From Mucilaginibacter rigui (lineage in GTDB: Bacteria > Bacteroidota > Bacteroidia > Sphingobacteriales > Sphingobacteriaceae), in assembly GCF_014773275.1 (NCBI RefSeq), contig NZ_JACWMW010000001.1, positions 1,426,001 through 1,490,000 on the forward strand: DNA of 64,000 nucleotides, written 5' to 3'. Shown here piece by piece: positions 3,483-32,798 of this stretch; position 1 is the stretch's first letter, and each line of letters opens with the position of its first letter. A program made the position numbers and the translations under genes. The notes below the pieces were generated by a model. That model did no database searches and was not told where the DNA came from. It saw only the letters and a list, made by a program, of their open reading frames with translations.

Positions 3483-4172
3483 ATGAGCATAGCGGATAAT
3501 ATTAAAAGCTTAAAAAAAGAAACTAACGAAATAAATGTTACCCTGCTGGCTGTTTCAAAAACAAAACCGGCAGCCGACCTGCAAGAGGCATACGATGCCG
3601 GGCAGCGTTTATTTGGCGAGAACATAGTACAGGAACTGGTTGAAAAGCACGAGCAATTACCTAAAGATATTGAGTGGCACCTGATTGGCCACCTGCAAAC
3701 CAATAAGGTTAAATATATAGCGCCATTCATCAGCATGATACAATCTGTAGATAGCCTGAAGCTTTTACAGGAAATTAACAAACATGCCGAAAAAAGTAAA
3801 CGTGTTATTGATTGCCTGCTGCAAATTTACATTGCCGACGAGGAAACAAAGTTTGGCCTGGGCTTTGACGAAGCTATTGAACTGTTACGCAGCGATGAAT
3901 ACGCGGCCTTAAAAAATATCCGCATCCGCGGGTTGATGGGTATAGCCACCAATACCGATAGCGAAAAGCAGATAAAGGAAGAGTATTACGAGCTGAAAAC
4001 CTTTTTTGATGGTATTAAAGTTAGCTTTTTCCGCAAGGAGGACTCTTTTGATACCTTATCAATGGGCATGTCATCAGACTATAAGCTGGCTATTGAACAG
4101 GGCAGCAACATGGTGCGCCTGGGCAGTACCATATTTGGCGGCAGGGTAATTAAACACTATAAGAATAATTAG
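3483..4172 (+). CDS. yggS: YggS-family PLP homeostasis protein
   Basis: The 229-aa protein folds as an alanine-racemase-like TIM barrel that binds pyridoxal 5'-phosphate. Lys26 in LLAVSKTK is the expected Schiff-base lysine. Other family signatures are FGENIVQEL, WHLIGHLQTNK and the C-terminal LSMGMSSDYKLAIEQGSNMVRLGSTIFG. YggS/PLPBP proteins buffer free PLP and influence amino-acid pools; no catalytic activity is established. The length is normal for the family. It is transcribed divergently from the DUF4296-mutS2 unit. Confidence 0.95.
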   Translation: MSIADNIKSLKKETNEINVTLLAVSKTKPAADLQEAYDAGQRLFGENIVQELVEKHEQLPKDIEWHLIGHLQTNKVKYIAPFISMIQSVDSLKLLQEINKHAEKSKRVIDCLLQIYIADEETKFGLGFDEAIELLRSDEYAALKNIRIRGLMGIATNTDSEKQIKEEYYELKTFFDGIKVSFFRKEDSFDTLSMGMSSDYKLAIEQGSNMVRLGSTIFGGRVIKHYKNN

Positions 4173-4262
4173 TGGGTGGTTGATTAAGTAAGTGGTGATT
4201 AGTTAAAAACAAAAAATCACATTGGGCCTAATGACTCAATGACCTAATGAACTCAATGACAA
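4173..4262. repeat. degenerate ATGACTCA-type short repeats
   Basis: Near-repeats of AATGACTCAATGACCTAATG run through the yggS-GNAT gap and into the first codons of the acetyltransferase. The repeat itself supplies two in-frame ATGs (4247 and 4256), which makes the start of that gene uncertain. Confidence 0.45.
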
Positions 4263-4732
4263 ATAATAATTTTAACATTCGTATAGCCGAAAAACAAGAT
4301 TGCCCGCGCCTGCTGGAGCTTATTCATGAACTTGCTTTGTTTGAACGTGCACCCGAAGAGGTGACCGTTACGCTGGAAGAATTTGAAGATGCAGGATTTG
4401 GCAGCAAACCTGTTTGGAAAGCATTTGTTGTTGAGGCCGACGGTAAAGTAGTGGCATTTGCTTTGTACTACGTACGCTATTCTACCTGGAAAGGCAGCCG
4501 TTTGTATTTGGAAGACCTGATAGTGACCGAAGAATACCGTGGCAAAGGCATTGGTAAGCTGTTGTTCGACAGGTTATTTCAGGAAACCCGCGAACTGGGC
4601 TTTAGCGGTATGGTTTGGCAGGTGCTTGACTGGAACGAACCGGCTATAAACTTTTACAAAAAATACGGGGCCAATATTGAGGCCGGCTGGTTAAATGCAT
4701 CTTTATCAAAAGAACAGATAGCTAACTTATAA
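4247..4732 (+). CDS. GNAT N-acetyltransferase, diamine acetyltransferase-like
   Basis: This is a 161-aa GNAT-fold enzyme. The acetyl-CoA binding motif A is RGKGIGKLLFDRLF (from Arg98) and motif B is NEPAINFYKKYGA (130-142). The segment LELIHELALFERAPEEV, and LYLEDLIV before motif A, resemble the spermidine/thialysine acetyltransferase (SSAT) group, so a small amine or modified lysine is a plausible substrate. That is inference. ATG 4247 and ATG 4256 are both possible starts. The gene ends three bases before the DUF3298 lipoprotein and probably forms an operon with it and the aspartate kinase. Confidence 0.85.
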   Translation: MNSMTNNNFNIRIAEKQDCPRLLELIHELALFERAPEEVTVTLEEFEDAGFGSKPVWKAFVVEADGKVVAFALYYVRYSTWKGSRLYLEDLIVTEEYRGKGIGKLLFDRLFQETRELGFSGMVWQVLDWNEPAINFYKKYGANIEAGWLNASLSKEQIANL

Positions 4733-4734
4733 CT

Positions 4735-5553
4735 ATGAAGGTAACATCATTACTATTTTTAGCGGTACTGGGCCTAAGCTCATGCCAGTGGGGAACCCCG
4801 GCAAAACAAGTACCGGCTGCTATTTTTACGGATACTCTTACTTACACCTACCGGGCCATACATGAACGTGCTGCCGATTGTGGCAGCAAACCTGATAGTA
4901 CCTGTACGGTGGTGGATATAAAATACCCGCTTTTTAAGGGGCAGGGTGTTTTAAACGATACCATAAAACACAAGCTGCTTAACATATTTATGTTGGGCGA
5001 AAAGCCGGACACCGGCCTTAACAGCCTGGCCACTAATTTTTTAAAATCGTACACTGATGCCAAAAAGGATGATCCGCGGTCGGCAATGTTTTACACGCTT
5101 GAGAGCTACGCCAGGGTGATTCGGCAGGATTCGGCTTTGCTGGCTTTAGAATATGGAGGCTATTCATACCAGGGTGGTGCGCATGGCGGCAGTTTTAAAG
5201 GGTTTATTAATTGGGATACCAAAACCAATAAGAATGTAACGCTTGATGATATTTTAGTGGATGGTTATAAACCGCAACTAACCAAAATTGCCGAAAAGAT
5301 ATTCCGTAAAAATGAAAAACTGACCGATACCTCATCGCTAAAGAACGATTACTTTTTTAAGGATGACAAATTCGCGCTGAACGAGAATTACTCGATAACC
5401 CCGGCAGGCATCCGTTTTGTTTATAACCAGTATGAGATAAAGCCTTATGCCGCGGGGCAAACAGAATTGATAATCCCCTATTCACAAATTAAAACATTAA
5501 TGCGGCCGAAGTCTGTCGCTTCACAATACATATATAAAAATGCTGGTATTTAA
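4735..5553 (+). CDS. DUF3298/DUF4163 (RsiV-like) lipoprotein
   Basis: The 272-aa protein has a lipoprotein signal peptide (LGLSSC, Cys17). An N-terminal DUF4163-like region is followed by a DUF3298-type domain, recognised by YSYQGGAHGGSFKGFINWD and the later KPYAAGQTELIIPYSQI. The same architecture occurs in RsiV, the lysozyme-binding anti-sigma factor of Bacillus, and in PdaC. Here there is no N-terminal cytoplasmic segment or sigma-factor neighbour, so an anti-sigma role is not supported. A periplasmic or outer-membrane-anchored glycan-binding role is possible. Its 3' end overlaps the aspartate kinase start by 14 bases. Confidence 0.8.
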   Translation: MKVTSLLFLAVLGLSSCQWGTPAKQVPAAIFTDTLTYTYRAIHERAADCGSKPDSTCTVVDIKYPLFKGQGVLNDTIKHKLLNIFMLGEKPDTGLNSLATNFLKSYTDAKKDDPRSAMFYTLESYARVIRQDSALLALEYGGYSYQGGAHGGSFKGFINWDTKTNKNVTLDDILVDGYKPQLTKIAEKIFRKNEKLTDTSSLKNDYFFKDDKFALNENYSITPAGIRFVYNQYEIKPYAAGQTELIIPYSQIKTLMRPKSVASQYIYKNAGI

Positions 5554-6796
5554 GTTCGGCGGGGCGTCGGTTAAGGATGCGCAGGGGGTTATAAACCTGG
5601 GCAATGTGGTTAGCACTTATTCGGGGAATGAAATTTTAGTGGTCGTATCTGCCATGGGCAAAACTACCAACGCGCTCGAAAAATTGACGGATGCCTATTT
5701 TAACGGTGCTGATGATCTGCATGAGATATTCGAAGAGATAAAAAATTATCATTACCAGATAGCGCATGAGCTGTTTGGCGACGGCCACCCTGTATTTGAT
5801 GAGATAGCCAATACCTTTGTTGAGATAGATTGGGCTATTGAAGATGAACCACACGATGATTACGACTTTATTTACGACCAGATCGTATCCATTGGCGAAC
5901 TGGTATCAACCCGCATAGTAAACGCCTGGTTTAACCATAAAGGCATCACCAGCAAATGGCTTGATGTTCGCGGCTATATACATACCGATAACACCTACCG
6001 CGAAGGTGTGGTTGATTGGGATAAAACCCGTGCAAGCATCCAAAAAGATATCCCGGCCATGCTTAACAAAGGCATTGTAGTAACACAGGGCTTTTTAGGC
6101 GGCACATCTGAAAACTTTACCACTACCCTTGGCCGTGAGGGTTCCGACTACACGGCATCCATTTTTGCGGCCTGCCTTGGCGCTGAATCTGTTACCACCT
6201 GGAAGGATGTGCCCGGCATTTTAAACGCCGACCCAAAGTTTTTTGCCGATACCATTAAGTTTGATGAACTAAGTTACCAGGAAGCTATAGAAATGACTTA
6301 CTACGGCGCAAGTGTTATCCATCCAAAAACCATAAAGCCACTGCAAAACGCCAATATACCGTTACTGGTTAAGCCCTTTACACATCCTGATGCACCCGGT
6401 ACGGTGATCAAAGAGAACGCGGTCAACAAGTTTGAAAAACCGGTTATCATTATAAAACAAAAGCAGGTATTGTTATCCATATCCGCTAACGATTATTCGT
6501 TTATATCAGAGAGCCATTTGAGCGAGATCTTCGGCTTGTTTGCCAGGTACCACGTAAAGATGAATATGATGCAAACATCGGCCCTGAGCTTTACCGCTTG
6601 TATTGATTACACTGCCGACCGCTTTGAAAAGTTATTACAATCACTTAAAGAAACTTTTAAGGTAAGATATAATAATGAGCTCACCCTTATTACGTTAAGG
6701 CATTACACCGATGCAGCAGTTGCAGAGCTAACAGCCGGTAAAACCATATTAATGAAGCAAACCAATAGGAACACCGCGCAGGTGGTATTGAGATAG
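5540..6796 (+). CDS. Aspartate kinase
   Basis: The 418-aa protein phosphorylates aspartate as the first step toward lysine, threonine, methionine and diaminopimelate. The N-terminus carries KFGGASVKD from Lys5 (family consensus KFGGTSV), then TTLGREGSDYTASIFA and VTTWKDVPGILNADPK, all part of the amino-acid-kinase fold. ACT-type regulatory sequence occupies about 300-418. It is monofunctional: no homoserine dehydrogenase domain is attached. The start overlaps the preceding lipoprotein gene by 14 bases in another frame, which suggests coupling. Which of the paralogous aspartate kinases this is cannot be decided from sequence alone. Confidence 0.92.
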   Translation: MLVFKFGGASVKDAQGVINLGNVVSTYSGNEILVVVSAMGKTTNALEKLTDAYFNGADDLHEIFEEIKNYHYQIAHELFGDGHPVFDEIANTFVEIDWAIEDEPHDDYDFIYDQIVSIGELVSTRIVNAWFNHKGITSKWLDVRGYIHTDNTYREGVVDWDKTRASIQKDIPAMLNKGIVVTQGFLGGTSENFTTTLGREGSDYTASIFAACLGAESVTTWKDVPGILNADPKFFADTIKFDELSYQEAIEMTYYGASVIHPKTIKPLQNANIPLLVKPFTHPDAPGTVIKENAVNKFEKPVIIIKQKQVLLSISANDYSFISESHLSEIFGLFARYHVKMNMMQTSALSFTACIDYTADRFEKLLQSLKETFKVRYNNELTLITLRHYTDAAVAELTAGKTILMKQTNRNTAQVVLR

Positions 6797-6835
6797 TAAG
6801 ATCGTTAGGAACATCCTGTTTATTCTTAAATTTAC

Positions 6836-6908
6836 TCACCCGCCATCGCTACGCTTGTCGACCCTCTCTGCTTCGCAAAGAAAGTGAGGAAAGCAAAGCT
6901 GTCGAATG
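6836..6908. repeat. imperfect dispersed repeat after aspartate kinase
   Basis: The stretch CTCACCCGCCATCGC...CGACCCTCTCTGCTTCGCAAAG shares wording with the longer repeat at 20208-20338 (GACCCTCTCGGCTTCGCAAAG). It lies between the convergent ends of the kinase and DUF92 genes. This looks like a member of a dispersed intergenic family. Confidence 0.5.
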
Positions 6909-6930
6909 ACTAAACTAAGCGCTGATATTG

Positions 6931-7653
6931 CTATAACAATAATAACAGGCATGAAGCTAAAACAGCCGTAAACGTGTTCAGAAAGTTTACTTCGTTGTTA
7001 TTCATATAACCTTTACGCTCCAGCGTGGCGCCTAATACCGAATCGGCCATGTTGCCGATGGTGCCGGCTATCAGGATGTTGAAGAATGTTCCGTTCCAGC
7101 CGAACGTAAATGAATAAACGCACGCAATAGCGGCCGAACCAGCTATGCCGATCAGTGTACCTTCCAGGCTGATGACGCCATCCATGCCCTTTTCATCCGG
7201 CTTTAAATTAAGGATATTATAAAAACGCCTGCCATAAACTGTACCCAGCTCTGATGACAAGGTATCTGCCGTAGCCGAAGCGAAAGCGGCAGCCATAAAT
7301 ACAGTTGCCAGTAGTGTATTATCGGGCATGGTAACTGCCAATATTCCCAATATTGCAGGTAAGCCGCCATTGGCCAACACTTGCCGCGCGTCGCGCTTTT
7401 GGGGGTGTTCGGCTTCACCTAAGTATCTTTTTTCTCTCTTTTTATGTGATGTAGCTAAAATCGACAGTACAAAAAATACAGCCAGCATGGAAATGCCTGT
7501 ATAGCCCGTGCCTAGGTAAATGCATAAACCAATAAACCCGCCGGTTATCGCCCCGCCCTCGGTTAGTTTGCCGGTTTTGTAACTGGCATAACTGGCCGCT
7601 ATCAGGAGGATCAGAAAAACAATTTGCGGTATTGGCATTGTGGTATCAAACAT
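6931..7653 (-). CDS. DUF92 family membrane protein
   Basis: The 240-aa integral membrane protein has about six hydrophobic helices. Family signatures are LTEGGAITGGFIGLCIYLGTG near 30-50, ASATADTLSSELGTVYG, and GTIGNMADSVLGATLERKG near the C-terminus. DUF92 is related to plant VTE6 phytyl-phosphate kinase and to CTP-dependent prenol/dolichol kinases, so a role in isoprenoid phosphate recycling is possible but untested in bacteria. It stands alone on the minus strand, convergent with the aspartate kinase. Confidence 0.85.
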   Translation of the reverse strand: MFDTTMPIPQIVFLILLIAASYASYKTGKLTEGGAITGGFIGLCIYLGTGYTGISMLAVFFVLSILATSHKKREKRYLGEAEHPQKRDARQVLANGGLPAILGILAVTMPDNTLLATVFMAAAFASATADTLSSELGTVYGRRFYNILNLKPDEKGMDGVISLEGTLIGIAGSAAIACVYSFTFGWNGTFFNILIAGTIGNMADSVLGATLERKGYMNNNEVNFLNTFTAVLASCLLLLL

Positions 7654-30318: not shown

Positions 30319-30358
30319 GGCAATGCGAGGCGTGAGGGTTCGAGTCCCTTCTTCCGCA
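30319..30358 (+). pseudogene. tRNA-Leu 3' remnant
   Basis: The sequence from 30331 reads CGTGAGGGTTCGAGTCCCTT then CTTCCGCA. This gives a T stem GAGGG/CCCTT (30334-30338 and 30346-30350) around TTCGAGT, a 7-base 3' acceptor strand CTTCCGC (30351-30357) and discriminator A. The wording, with the GCGAGGCGT variable-arm-like segment before it, matches the 3' third of a bacterial tRNA-Leu. The matching 5' acceptor GCGGAAG and D and anticodon arms are not present upstream, so it cannot be a working tRNA. This looks like an integration scar or degraded gene. Confidence 0.75.
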
Positions 30359-30691: not shown

Positions 30692-31114
30692 TTATGAATT
30701 TACAGCAAGTTGATTGTTTTCTATAAAGGTTTTAATTGCGGCAACGGCGCTGCCTTTGCCATCGTTTAAATCAAGGTCGCTTATTGATTTTAAATAGCCC
30801 ACTAATTTTTCTGTTTTTGCACTGTCTGTTACTGTAAAGCCCATTAGCCATTGCGAAAAGCTTTTTTCGGCAATAGGCTCATCAATCAGTTTTATCACAT
30901 TTTTATGGCGCTGGTCGGCTTGTATCCTTGAGTAAAGCGCATCAATTACCGAATCTTTTCCCTCTAAAACCTGTATAAACGTTCCTTCGGAATACAACAA
31001 TACGCCCGAAATATTAAGTGCCGCGTTATGTAGCCTTGCATTGTGTAAAATATCAAGTAATTGATTTTCGTGCATTAATTTAACAGCGGTACTTATGTAA
31101 ACTATATTTTTCAT
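30692..31114 (-). CDS. BLUF-domain blue-light photoreceptor
   Basis: The 140-aa protein is a stand-alone BLUF domain (about 1-95) plus a short helical tail. Every flavin-photocycle residue is present with the family spacing: Tyr6, Asn30, Gln48 (LLYSEGTFIQVLEG), Trp89 and Met91 (FSQWLMGF). These line up with AppA Tyr21, Asn45, Gln63, Trp104 and Met106, so it should bind FAD and respond to blue light. Short BLUF proteins carry no output domain and must signal to a partner. Its ATG overlaps the stop of the DUF3095 gene by one base (TAATG), which makes that protein the obvious candidate. Confidence 0.95.
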   Translation of the reverse strand: MKNIVYISTAVKLMHENQLLDILHNARLHNAALNISGVLLYSEGTFIQVLEGKDSVIDALYSRIQADQRHKNVIKLIDEPIAEKSFSQWLMGFTVTDSAKTEKLVGYLKSISDLDLNDGKGSAVAAIKTFIENNQLAVNS

Positions 31115-32283
31115 TAATTGGGTAAATTGTTTAAATGTATTTTTTCCTTTAGTATTTTGGCGGCCTGCGTGTATCCCCCTTCTGAGCCATCAACAAAATG
31201 AATATGCCCGTCTATAAGGTCGCGTACATAGCACGACATGATGGAGGCGCTGCTGATGTGCAGTCCGTATAATATTGCCCTGTCCTGCTCCAGTTCATCC
31301 AATGCTTGCTGTAGCTCTTTACGCTGTTTGATGGTGCCCGATATAACCGTATTGATTTTGCCATCAATCACCAGTGTGTCGGCCATTTCTACCAGGCTCT
31401 TTAAATACTTTCGGCCACTTCGTGTCCTGAAATAAATTTGGCCGTACAATGTAGTTAACCATATTGTGATCAACTTAAACCATTTAACCTGCCCCAGCCT
31501 GAAACGCATTTCGGCTCCTAAATTACTAAAAGTAGTTTTAAGTTTTAATTGTGCAACAGATATGGGCTGTCGTTTGCGCGGTGGGCCGTATATCTCATCT
31601 ATCTTATTCATCACTTTACTAAAGGATGCCGACTGCCTTGCATTATCGCCGGCTGCAACCAATAGGGTAACCACTTCTTCCCTATCCTGCGGCGGCGCTA
31701 CCCTATCCCATCGGCATTGCATGCCGCTTAGGTCAAGTTCATCTGTTTGGGCCGGATGATTTGATAAAAGGGCGTCGTCTCCTTTAATCAACTGCTCGGC
31801 ATAGTTAAGGCCGTTACCCAAAACAACAGGAATATGGAAAGATGCTGAACTGCTGAATTTAGCAATATGCAGATGATGGCCTTGCGTGTAGATCTGCTCT
31901 ATTGCTACCATGCCGGTACGTAGCTCAAGGTTAAACGTGTTTTGGGTATTGATTTTGTAAGAAGCCAGTGCCTGCATTACTTTATCGATAATGCCGGGTG
32001 GAACAATAAAAGTGGCGCCATCGCCCCCAAAGAAAAAAGGGATAATAATGTTTAATCCATATGCGATATTAAGGACAGATACGATGCTGCCTGTAGCTAT
32101 CAGGTTTACATCTTCGTGCCTGCCGCTAAACACAGCGTTGGTAGATCCCTTTATATCGGTGAGCACTACATACCAGCCGCGCGGTATTTCATTAAACAAA
32201 TGGGATTGGGTTAAAAGCTCACCAAGTGGCATTTTATGTGCAGGTAATTCTGCATAAAACTGGTCATTAGCTGCTACCGGCAT
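31114..32283 (-). CDS. DUF3095 protein, class III cyclase-like
   Basis: The 389-aa cytoplasmic protein has an N-terminal part resembling a class III nucleotidyl cyclase: VVLTDIKGSTNAV with Asp43 and FFFGGDGATFIVP with Asp88. In true cyclases the two metal-binding Asp sit about 44 residues apart, and here the spacing is 45. The C-terminal half ends in the DUF3095 hallmark SCYVRDLIDGHIHFVDGSEGGYTQAA. Whether it makes a cyclic nucleotide is unknown; the base-selecting and transition-state residues cannot be assigned. It is translationally coupled to the BLUF photoreceptor. Confidence 0.85.
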   Translation of the reverse strand: MPVAANDQFYAELPAHKMPLGELLTQSHLFNEIPRGWYVVLTDIKGSTNAVFSGRHEDVNLIATGSIVSVLNIAYGLNIIIPFFFGGDGATFIVPPGIIDKVMQALASYKINTQNTFNLELRTGMVAIEQIYTQGHHLHIAKFSSSASFHIPVVLGNGLNYAEQLIKGDDALLSNHPAQTDELDLSGMQCRWDRVAPPQDREEVVTLLVAAGDNARQSASFSKVMNKIDEIYGPPRKRQPISVAQLKLKTTFSNLGAEMRFRLGQVKWFKLITIWLTTLYGQIYFRTRSGRKYLKSLVEMADTLVIDGKINTVISGTIKQRKELQQALDELEQDRAILYGLHISSASIMSCYVRDLIDGHIHFVDGSEGGYTQAAKILKEKIHLNNLPN

Positions 32284-32357
32284 ATATACTAAATATACGT
32301 AAAAACACTTCTTAGGTTTTAAGAAGTTTATAATACATAATCGTTAATAGAAGTGAG

Positions 32358-32798
32358 CTAAACGAGGGTTTTAGGCCATTTCCATGCTTGCCATACAATT
32401 AAAAGCGTTATAATAACTTCTACCATACCTAAAAAGATATAAAACACCCACCACGGGTCGATAGAAATTAACACCACCAATACCATAACAATGGTGTAAA
32501 TAATCCCCGCTATAATGTTTAAAATACGGTTTGTCTTCGGCTTTAATACTAACGATAAAAAGACCATTAGAGCCGGTACCGCCATGAGTATGGCTGCGGC
32601 TAACAATTTGTAAGGGGTTGTTTCACCAACGCCCATATGCCCGTTTAATAATCCTTTAAGACGTTGAGGCACAAACATCGAAAATATGTCGCCGTATATA
32701 TATAACAACATTAAACTTACCCATAAAGCGGATAATTTTATTTTGGTGTTTACCTTAATGTCTTCAAAGCTGCGGGTAATAGTACCGTTTGGGGCCAT
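32358..32798 (-). CDS. four-TM membrane protein, DUF6326-like
   Basis: The 146-aa protein has four predicted TM helices (about 20-45, 65-85, 92-112, 118-138) with the pattern LSALWVSLMLLYIYGDIFSMF at the first helix and an AAILMAVPALMVFLSLVL second helix. It resembles a family I recall as DUF6326. It lies 74 bases upstream of the DUF3095 gene on the same strand, so a three-gene unit with the light-sensing pair is possible. Confidence 0.65.
   Translation of the reverse strand: MAPNGTITRSFEDIKVNTKIKLSALWVSLMLLYIYGDIFSMFVPQRLKGLLNGHMGVGETTPYKLLAAAILMAVPALMVFLSLVLKPKTNRILNIIAGIIYTIVMVLVVLISIDPWWVFYIFLGMVEVIITLLIVWQAWKWPKTLV

Follow-up and report, generated by a model that had tools for sequence, protein, structure and literature searches.

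The adjacent DUF3095 and BLUF genes of Mucilaginibacter rigui (genome G000, 4.71 Mb, with one gene of each kind) are best explained, with a probability of about 0.6, as two ordinary building blocks that were recently joined: a DUF3095 gene of the sort that normally stands alone and a standard short BLUF photoreceptor, the two now being co-expressed. The pair lies in a window of 64 000 nucleotides, which is the whole stretch of DNA that was analysed, and a first-pass annotation made from the letters alone had given the open reading frames, strands and coordinates of both genes correctly. The features are as follows.

31114-32283, minus strand: DUF3095 (PF11294) protein of 389 residues, with a predicted class III cyclase-like N-terminal lobe and a predicted ferredoxin/palm-like C-terminal lobe that carries a helical insertion
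30692-31114, minus strand: stand-alone (short) BLUF photoreceptor of 140 residues, with Tyr6, Asn30, Gln48, Trp89 and Met91 present
31112-31116, minus strand: TAATG junction, the DUF3095 stop and the BLUF start having one base in common (TGATG in the related genome G507)
31117-31140, minus strand: lineage-specific tail IHLNNLPN of the DUF3095 protein
32295-32305, minus strand: TTTTTACGTAT element, some 12 nt before DUF3095, conserved in G000, G507, G415 and G364 and probably part of DUF3095's own promoter

The minus-strand junction reads CCCAATTAATGAAA, in which the TAA of DUF3095 and the ATG of BLUF overlap in a single A; the one-base overlap described in the first-pass annotation is thereby borne out. 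A single message is probable, since the genes point the same way, have a one-base overlap in two genomes and are both under selection, and the overlap makes co-transcription likely. Between G000 and G507, dN/dS is about 0.05 in DUF3095 and 0.19 in BLUF, low values that indicate purifying selection on both genes and speak for a functional pair. A DUF6326 membrane-protein-like gene (32358-32798, minus strand) lies on the same strand 74 bp upstream of DUF3095, as it also does in G507, and might head the DUF3095 message. The last 22 bases of a tRNA gene lie at 30337-30358 on the plus strand, a few hundred bases away from BLUF, and match exactly the 3' end of an intact tRNA-Leu gene on contig C10; no complete tRNA was found at this site, and the fragment is probably the scar of an element inserted at a tRNA.

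Judged by its sequence, the BLUF protein is an ordinary blue-light receptor of the short type. The PF04940 profile covers a full BLUF domain (1-92 of 92, E = 4.4e-29, 100.9 bits against a curated cut-off of 25), all five residues of the photocycle are found and nothing recognisable lies C-terminal of the domain, in agreement with the earlier description of a complete sensor without an output domain. Among proteins of solved structure, this BLUF is closest to AppA, to other BLUF proteins and to the BLUF portions of photoactivated cyclases.

DUF3095 is a widespread soluble protein of Bacteroidota and Alphaproteobacteria and is normally encoded by a lone gene. Of 396 genomes sampled from the phylum 58 have it, as have 28 of 150 Mucilaginibacter genomes, and it is also found on many rhizobial plasmids. 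Clustering of the neighbours at 125 distinct loci revealed none that was conserved beyond local synteny within genera, and thus no conserved non-BLUF partner at these loci. No phage or viral carriage of DUF3095 was found, and a role in anti-phage defence was rejected because PADLOC gave no match. The gene is in pieces or fragments in three Mucilaginibacter genomes (G455, G414 and G468; loci L051/L204, L049, L050 and L052) and is therefore dispensable there. Cyclase genes stand near DUF3095 at a few loci. A metagenome-assembled genome of Lewinellaceae (L178) has a class III cyclase gene (3749-5992, plus strand) 8 bp before DUF3095 (6001-7158, plus strand), L090 has another cyclase about 1.2 kb before DUF3095, and plasmids of Rhizobium phaseoli and Mesorhizobium (L317 and L319) carry, within a few genes of DUF3095 and beside a nucleotide sugar dehydrogenase gene, one or two genes annotated as adenylate/guanylate cyclases.

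The first-pass annotation had put forward a family-wide count of BLUF genes beside DUF3095 as a check on a coupled pair, and this count went against recurrence. When all DUF3095 loci of the genus Mucilaginibacter were checked, BLUF adjoined DUF3095 in three of the 28 DUF3095-bearing genomes among the 150 searched, namely G000, G507 and G415, which form one small clade. No such adjacency was seen at about 100 loci checked outside the genus, none of 80 named loci had a BLUF within 6 kb of DUF3095, and in the initial set of whole-genome DUF3095 loci a BLUF was nearby in G415 only. On the strength of the genus-wide and collection-wide neighbour checks, a recurrent BLUF-DUF3095 operon was rejected. 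The DUF3095 protein of G000 is 93% identical to that of G507, 77% to that of G415 and 76% to that of G364, the last having no linked BLUF beside its DUF3095. Outside the three-genome clade, DUF3095 most likely acts independently of light. BLUF does co-occur with DUF3095 in the genus (18 of 20 genomes with DUF3095 against 44 of 81 without it; Fisher p = 0.004, uncorrected for phylogeny or genome completeness), a statistic to which we attach little weight. Chance neighbours are unlikely a priori, with about 0.01 expected over 20 genomes against one event observed, a comparison judged after the fact.

The origin of the pair can be followed within the genus, where BLUF genes are common (62 of 101 Mucilaginibacter genomes). 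Relatives of this BLUF lie directly behind a gene for a 253-residue protein of the metallo-β-lactamase fold (Lactamase_B_2) on the same strand; this arrangement, without overlap, accounts for 12 of about 30 Mucilaginibacter BLUF loci (L103, L104, L108, L110, L113, L114, L120, L124, L126, L129, L130 and L131) and is a better candidate than DUF3095 for a conserved BLUF partnership. In a maximum-likelihood tree the three DUF3095-linked BLUFs (support 100/100) are nested inside the metallo-β-lactamase-linked ones, at the end of a long branch (0.58 changes per column), and descent from those copies implies that the DUF3095-linked BLUF was relocated once. Both BLUF copies persist in G507 and G415; of the two, G000 retains the one next to DUF3095, having lost the copy behind the metallo-β-lactamase-fold gene. 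This nesting, together with the presence of both copies in G507 and G415, makes the pair a single, fairly recent event. We propose that in the ancestor of the three genomes a BLUF copy from the metallo-β-lactamase-linked lineage was placed beside DUF3095, and that the two genes, now co-directional, would be made from one message. The loss in G000 is clean, leaving a gap of about 40 bp (L309, 2262-2304, reverse complement) where G507, G415, G458 and G214 keep a BLUF behind the metallo-β-lactamase-fold gene.

Gene order has changed within the clade. G507 has the same order and one-base overlap as G000, with TGATG replacing TAATG. G415 shows the opposite arrangement, in which BLUF leads and DUF3095, preceded by an upstream element of its own, lies 42 bp behind it. 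The sequence directly before BLUF in G415, CAATCTACCCAATTGATG, nevertheless repeats exactly the end of the G507 DUF3095 gene, and the tail IHLNNLPN is absent from the DUF3095 proteins of G415 and G364; this displaced copy and the missing tail indicate that a local rearrangement in one lineage changed the order. Either a tandem duplication was followed by loss of the outer copies, or DUF3095 joined the former leader of BLUF in G000 and G507.

The alternative that survives best, at roughly even odds, is that BLUF landed behind DUF3095 as a passenger, is transcribed from the DUF3095 promoter and passes its signal to an unrelated partner encoded at another locus. Its sister BLUFs lie, without overlap, behind the metallo-β-lactamase-fold gene at the 12 loci listed above or, in a separate clade (support 99/97), directly behind a single-domain response-regulator gene at five others (L109, L115, L118, L121 and L127), an arrangement reminiscent of the PixD-PixE pair; with two kinds of upstream gene, short BLUFs here have no one fixed neighbour. 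The lack of conserved partners of DUF3095 points the same way. However, adjacency was retained through the rearrangement and the other BLUF was lost in G000. These same observations count against a view of recent juxtaposition and nothing more: adjacency through the reordering in G415, the overlap kept in G507 and the retention in G000 of just this BLUF are together more than a neutral neighbour would predict.

What DUF3095 itself contributes depends on its fold. The PF11294 profile matches the protein over its full length (1-378 of 378, E = 5.7e-97, 325.6 bits against a cut-off of 22.2), no solved structure similar in sequence was found and no paper in the literature searched mentions the family. 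An AlphaFold model of the full protein, built with 59 homologues, has a pLDDT of 92.8 and a pTM of 0.90. Its N-terminal lobe consists of strand 38-45, helices 47-52 and 56-76, strands 83-85 and 89-94, helix 96-117 and strand 120-127. A Foldseek search of the PDB with this model gave human soluble adenylyl cyclase as the top match (E = 1.7e-5, probability 1.00), followed by adenylyl cyclase 9, Csm1/Cas10, GTP cyclohydrolase III and the guanylyl cyclase Cya2. Whole-chain TM-scores against cyclases are about 0.4 with a large r.m.s.d., so that either the lobes are arranged differently or just one of them fits well. The C-terminal half modelled alone (pLDDT 81.8) had no PDB match at E ≤ 0.001, with Csm1, the adenylyl cyclase C2 domain and guanylyl cyclase as the best at E values of 0.04-0.12, and with Csm1 and cyclases heading the matches over a range of 0.04-0.2. 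The cyclase fold is thus well supported by the model for the N-terminal half, the top PDB matches being cyclases; the reading of DUF3095 as a two-domain cyclase is a suggestion, since the C-terminal half alone lacks a significant match. Two acidic residues are central to the comparison.

32155-32157, minus strand: codon of Asp43, in TDIKGST at the end of strand β1 (38-45), at the first metal Asp position of class III cyclases; kept in 131 of 132 homologues
32020-32022, minus strand: codon of Asp88, in FGGDGATF in the β2/β3 hairpin (strands 83-85 and 89-94), at the second metal Asp position; kept in 131 of 132 homologues

In the model these residues, 45 positions apart, occupy the class III positions of the fold, as the first-pass annotation had proposed, and they are retained rather than lost across the family. 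Asn60, Asn72, Lys167, Cys190, Cys351, His362 and Asp365 are found in all 132 homologues, Ser47, Thr48 and the GGDG motif are further conserved positions in this set and Lys379 is nearly invariant in it. Such conservation favours a functional site for nucleotide or metal. DUF3095 most likely binds nucleotide and metal between its lobes, in the manner of a single-chain C1-C2 cyclase, given the predicted N-terminal cyclase fold, the two metal-type Asp residues and the C-terminal α/β sandwich of the model.

The earlier suggestion of a cyclase holds for the fold of the N-terminal half and for the positions of the Asp residues; sequence profiles do not recognise a cyclase. The class III cyclase profile PF00211 matched none of 59 DUF3095 members, and a cyclase profile built in this analysis scored at best 1.5 bits. 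Profile-profile comparison of DUF3095 with cyclases gave a non-significant 0.4%, a result that we do not count against cyclase homology because the test is insensitive, the known cyclase-GGDEF pair used as a positive control itself scoring just 17.9%. Kinship with GGDEF proteins was rejected (a weak profile-profile value of 12.7%, with no GGDEF protein in G000). The whole-protein TM-score, the non-significant profile-profile value and the unmatched C-terminal half are also counted against our preferred explanation.

It is possible, if rather less probable than a passenger BLUF, that DUF3095 is a degenerate protein of cyclase fold, binding nucleotides without turning them over and serving as a sensor or scaffold, a role compatible with the other alternatives considered here. 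In an alignment made by eye, no conserved equivalents of the base-selecting residues or of the Asn-x3-Arg transition-state motif were seen in DUF3095: the motif has no conserved Arg, position 164 being Gln here, and Val takes the place of the base-selecting Lys305 that part of the family has. The absence of a Pfam cyclase match in all 59 members fits such a protein, but both metal-type Asp residues, Lys167 and Lys379 are nearly invariant, which would be unusual in a dead enzyme, and Lys167, Lys379 and Arg191 could substitute for the base-selecting and transition-state residues.

A light-controlled split enzyme is less likely still. By analogy with PapB-PapA (PMC8846402), BLUF and DUF3095 would form a complex in which light would move the C-terminal helices of BLUF, shift the lobes of DUF3095 and so alter its nucleotide chemistry. 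The one-base overlap in G000 and G507, the adjacency kept despite the reversed order in G415, the complete set of photocycle residues, the long branch before the DUF3095-linked clade and the fact that the sole BLUF of G000 is the linked one are all consistent with such a switch. However, 25 of the 28 Mucilaginibacter genomes with DUF3095 lack the pair, as does every locus checked outside the genus, and G364 has a DUF3095 about as close (76%) with no linked BLUF. Physical or light-dependent coupling of any kind is accordingly unlikely, and that DUF3095 is an undescribed two-lobed, single-chain nucleotidyl cyclase or nucleotide-metal enzyme, captured and blue-light-switched by BLUF in one Mucilaginibacter clade, is improbable.

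On the preferred reading of two recently joined building blocks, the durable result is DUF3095 as a cyclase-fold family worth assaying; its N-terminal cyclase-type fold and near-invariant metal Asp residues make its biochemistry directly testable. A light-controlled pair, confined to three genomes, has a low probability and is cheap to test. Were the link functional, the pair would represent a natural two-chain light switch observed shortly after its formation, which would show how a sensor is recruited and offer an optogenetic lead; were it not, the locus would exemplify a one-base overlap that arose by local rearrangement without an ancient partnership.

The first-pass annotation had called the separate-chain form unusual, and here it has to be corrected. 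In Rhodopseudomonas palustris, the short BLUF protein PapB and the EAL protein PapA assemble into a heterotetramer (PMC8846402), and PixD-PixE, BlsA-Fur and YcgF-YcgE are further cases of BLUF proteins acting on separate partners (PMC5955987); with PapB-PapA, PixD-PixE and BlsA-Fur established, the arrangement is not new in kind. PapB-PapA resembles the present pair in combining, on separate chains, a short BLUF with an effector of nucleotide-signalling type. It differs in that PapA is an EAL c-di-GMP phosphodiesterase in a demonstrated complex, whereas DUF3095 has another fold and is known here from sequence and a model. The recurrent gene linkage that would be expected of a split pair of this type was not seen, BLUF-DUF3095 linkage amounting to 3 of 28 genomes in the genus and none elsewhere. 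The partners in PixD-PixE, BlsA-Fur and YcgF-YcgE are, unlike DUF3095, a response-regulator-like protein or transcription factors. The photoactivated BLUF cyclases are indeed fusions, as the annotation had said. bPAC and OaPAC share with the pair a BLUF related in sequence and, as possible output, a fold of class III type, but in them the sensor and a canonical class III domain are fused in a single chain; the present pair has two chains and a divergent fold that PF00211 does not recognise. Human soluble adenylyl cyclase and adenylyl cyclase 9, class III enzymes with two catalytic domains, are the best structural matches of the DUF3095 model and agree with it in the order of secondary-structure elements and in the positions of the two Asp residues, although identity is 7-10%, the TM-score is about 0.4 and the C-terminal half is not significant alone. 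DUF2652 is an uncharacterised cyclase-like family of Bacteroidetes and Proteobacteria with two conserved metal Asp residues (PMC4886424); it has a single cyclase domain and belongs to a different Pfam family. On the evidence of the predicted model, DUF3095 would be a further cyclase-like DUF family beside DUF2652, distinguished by a second lobe.
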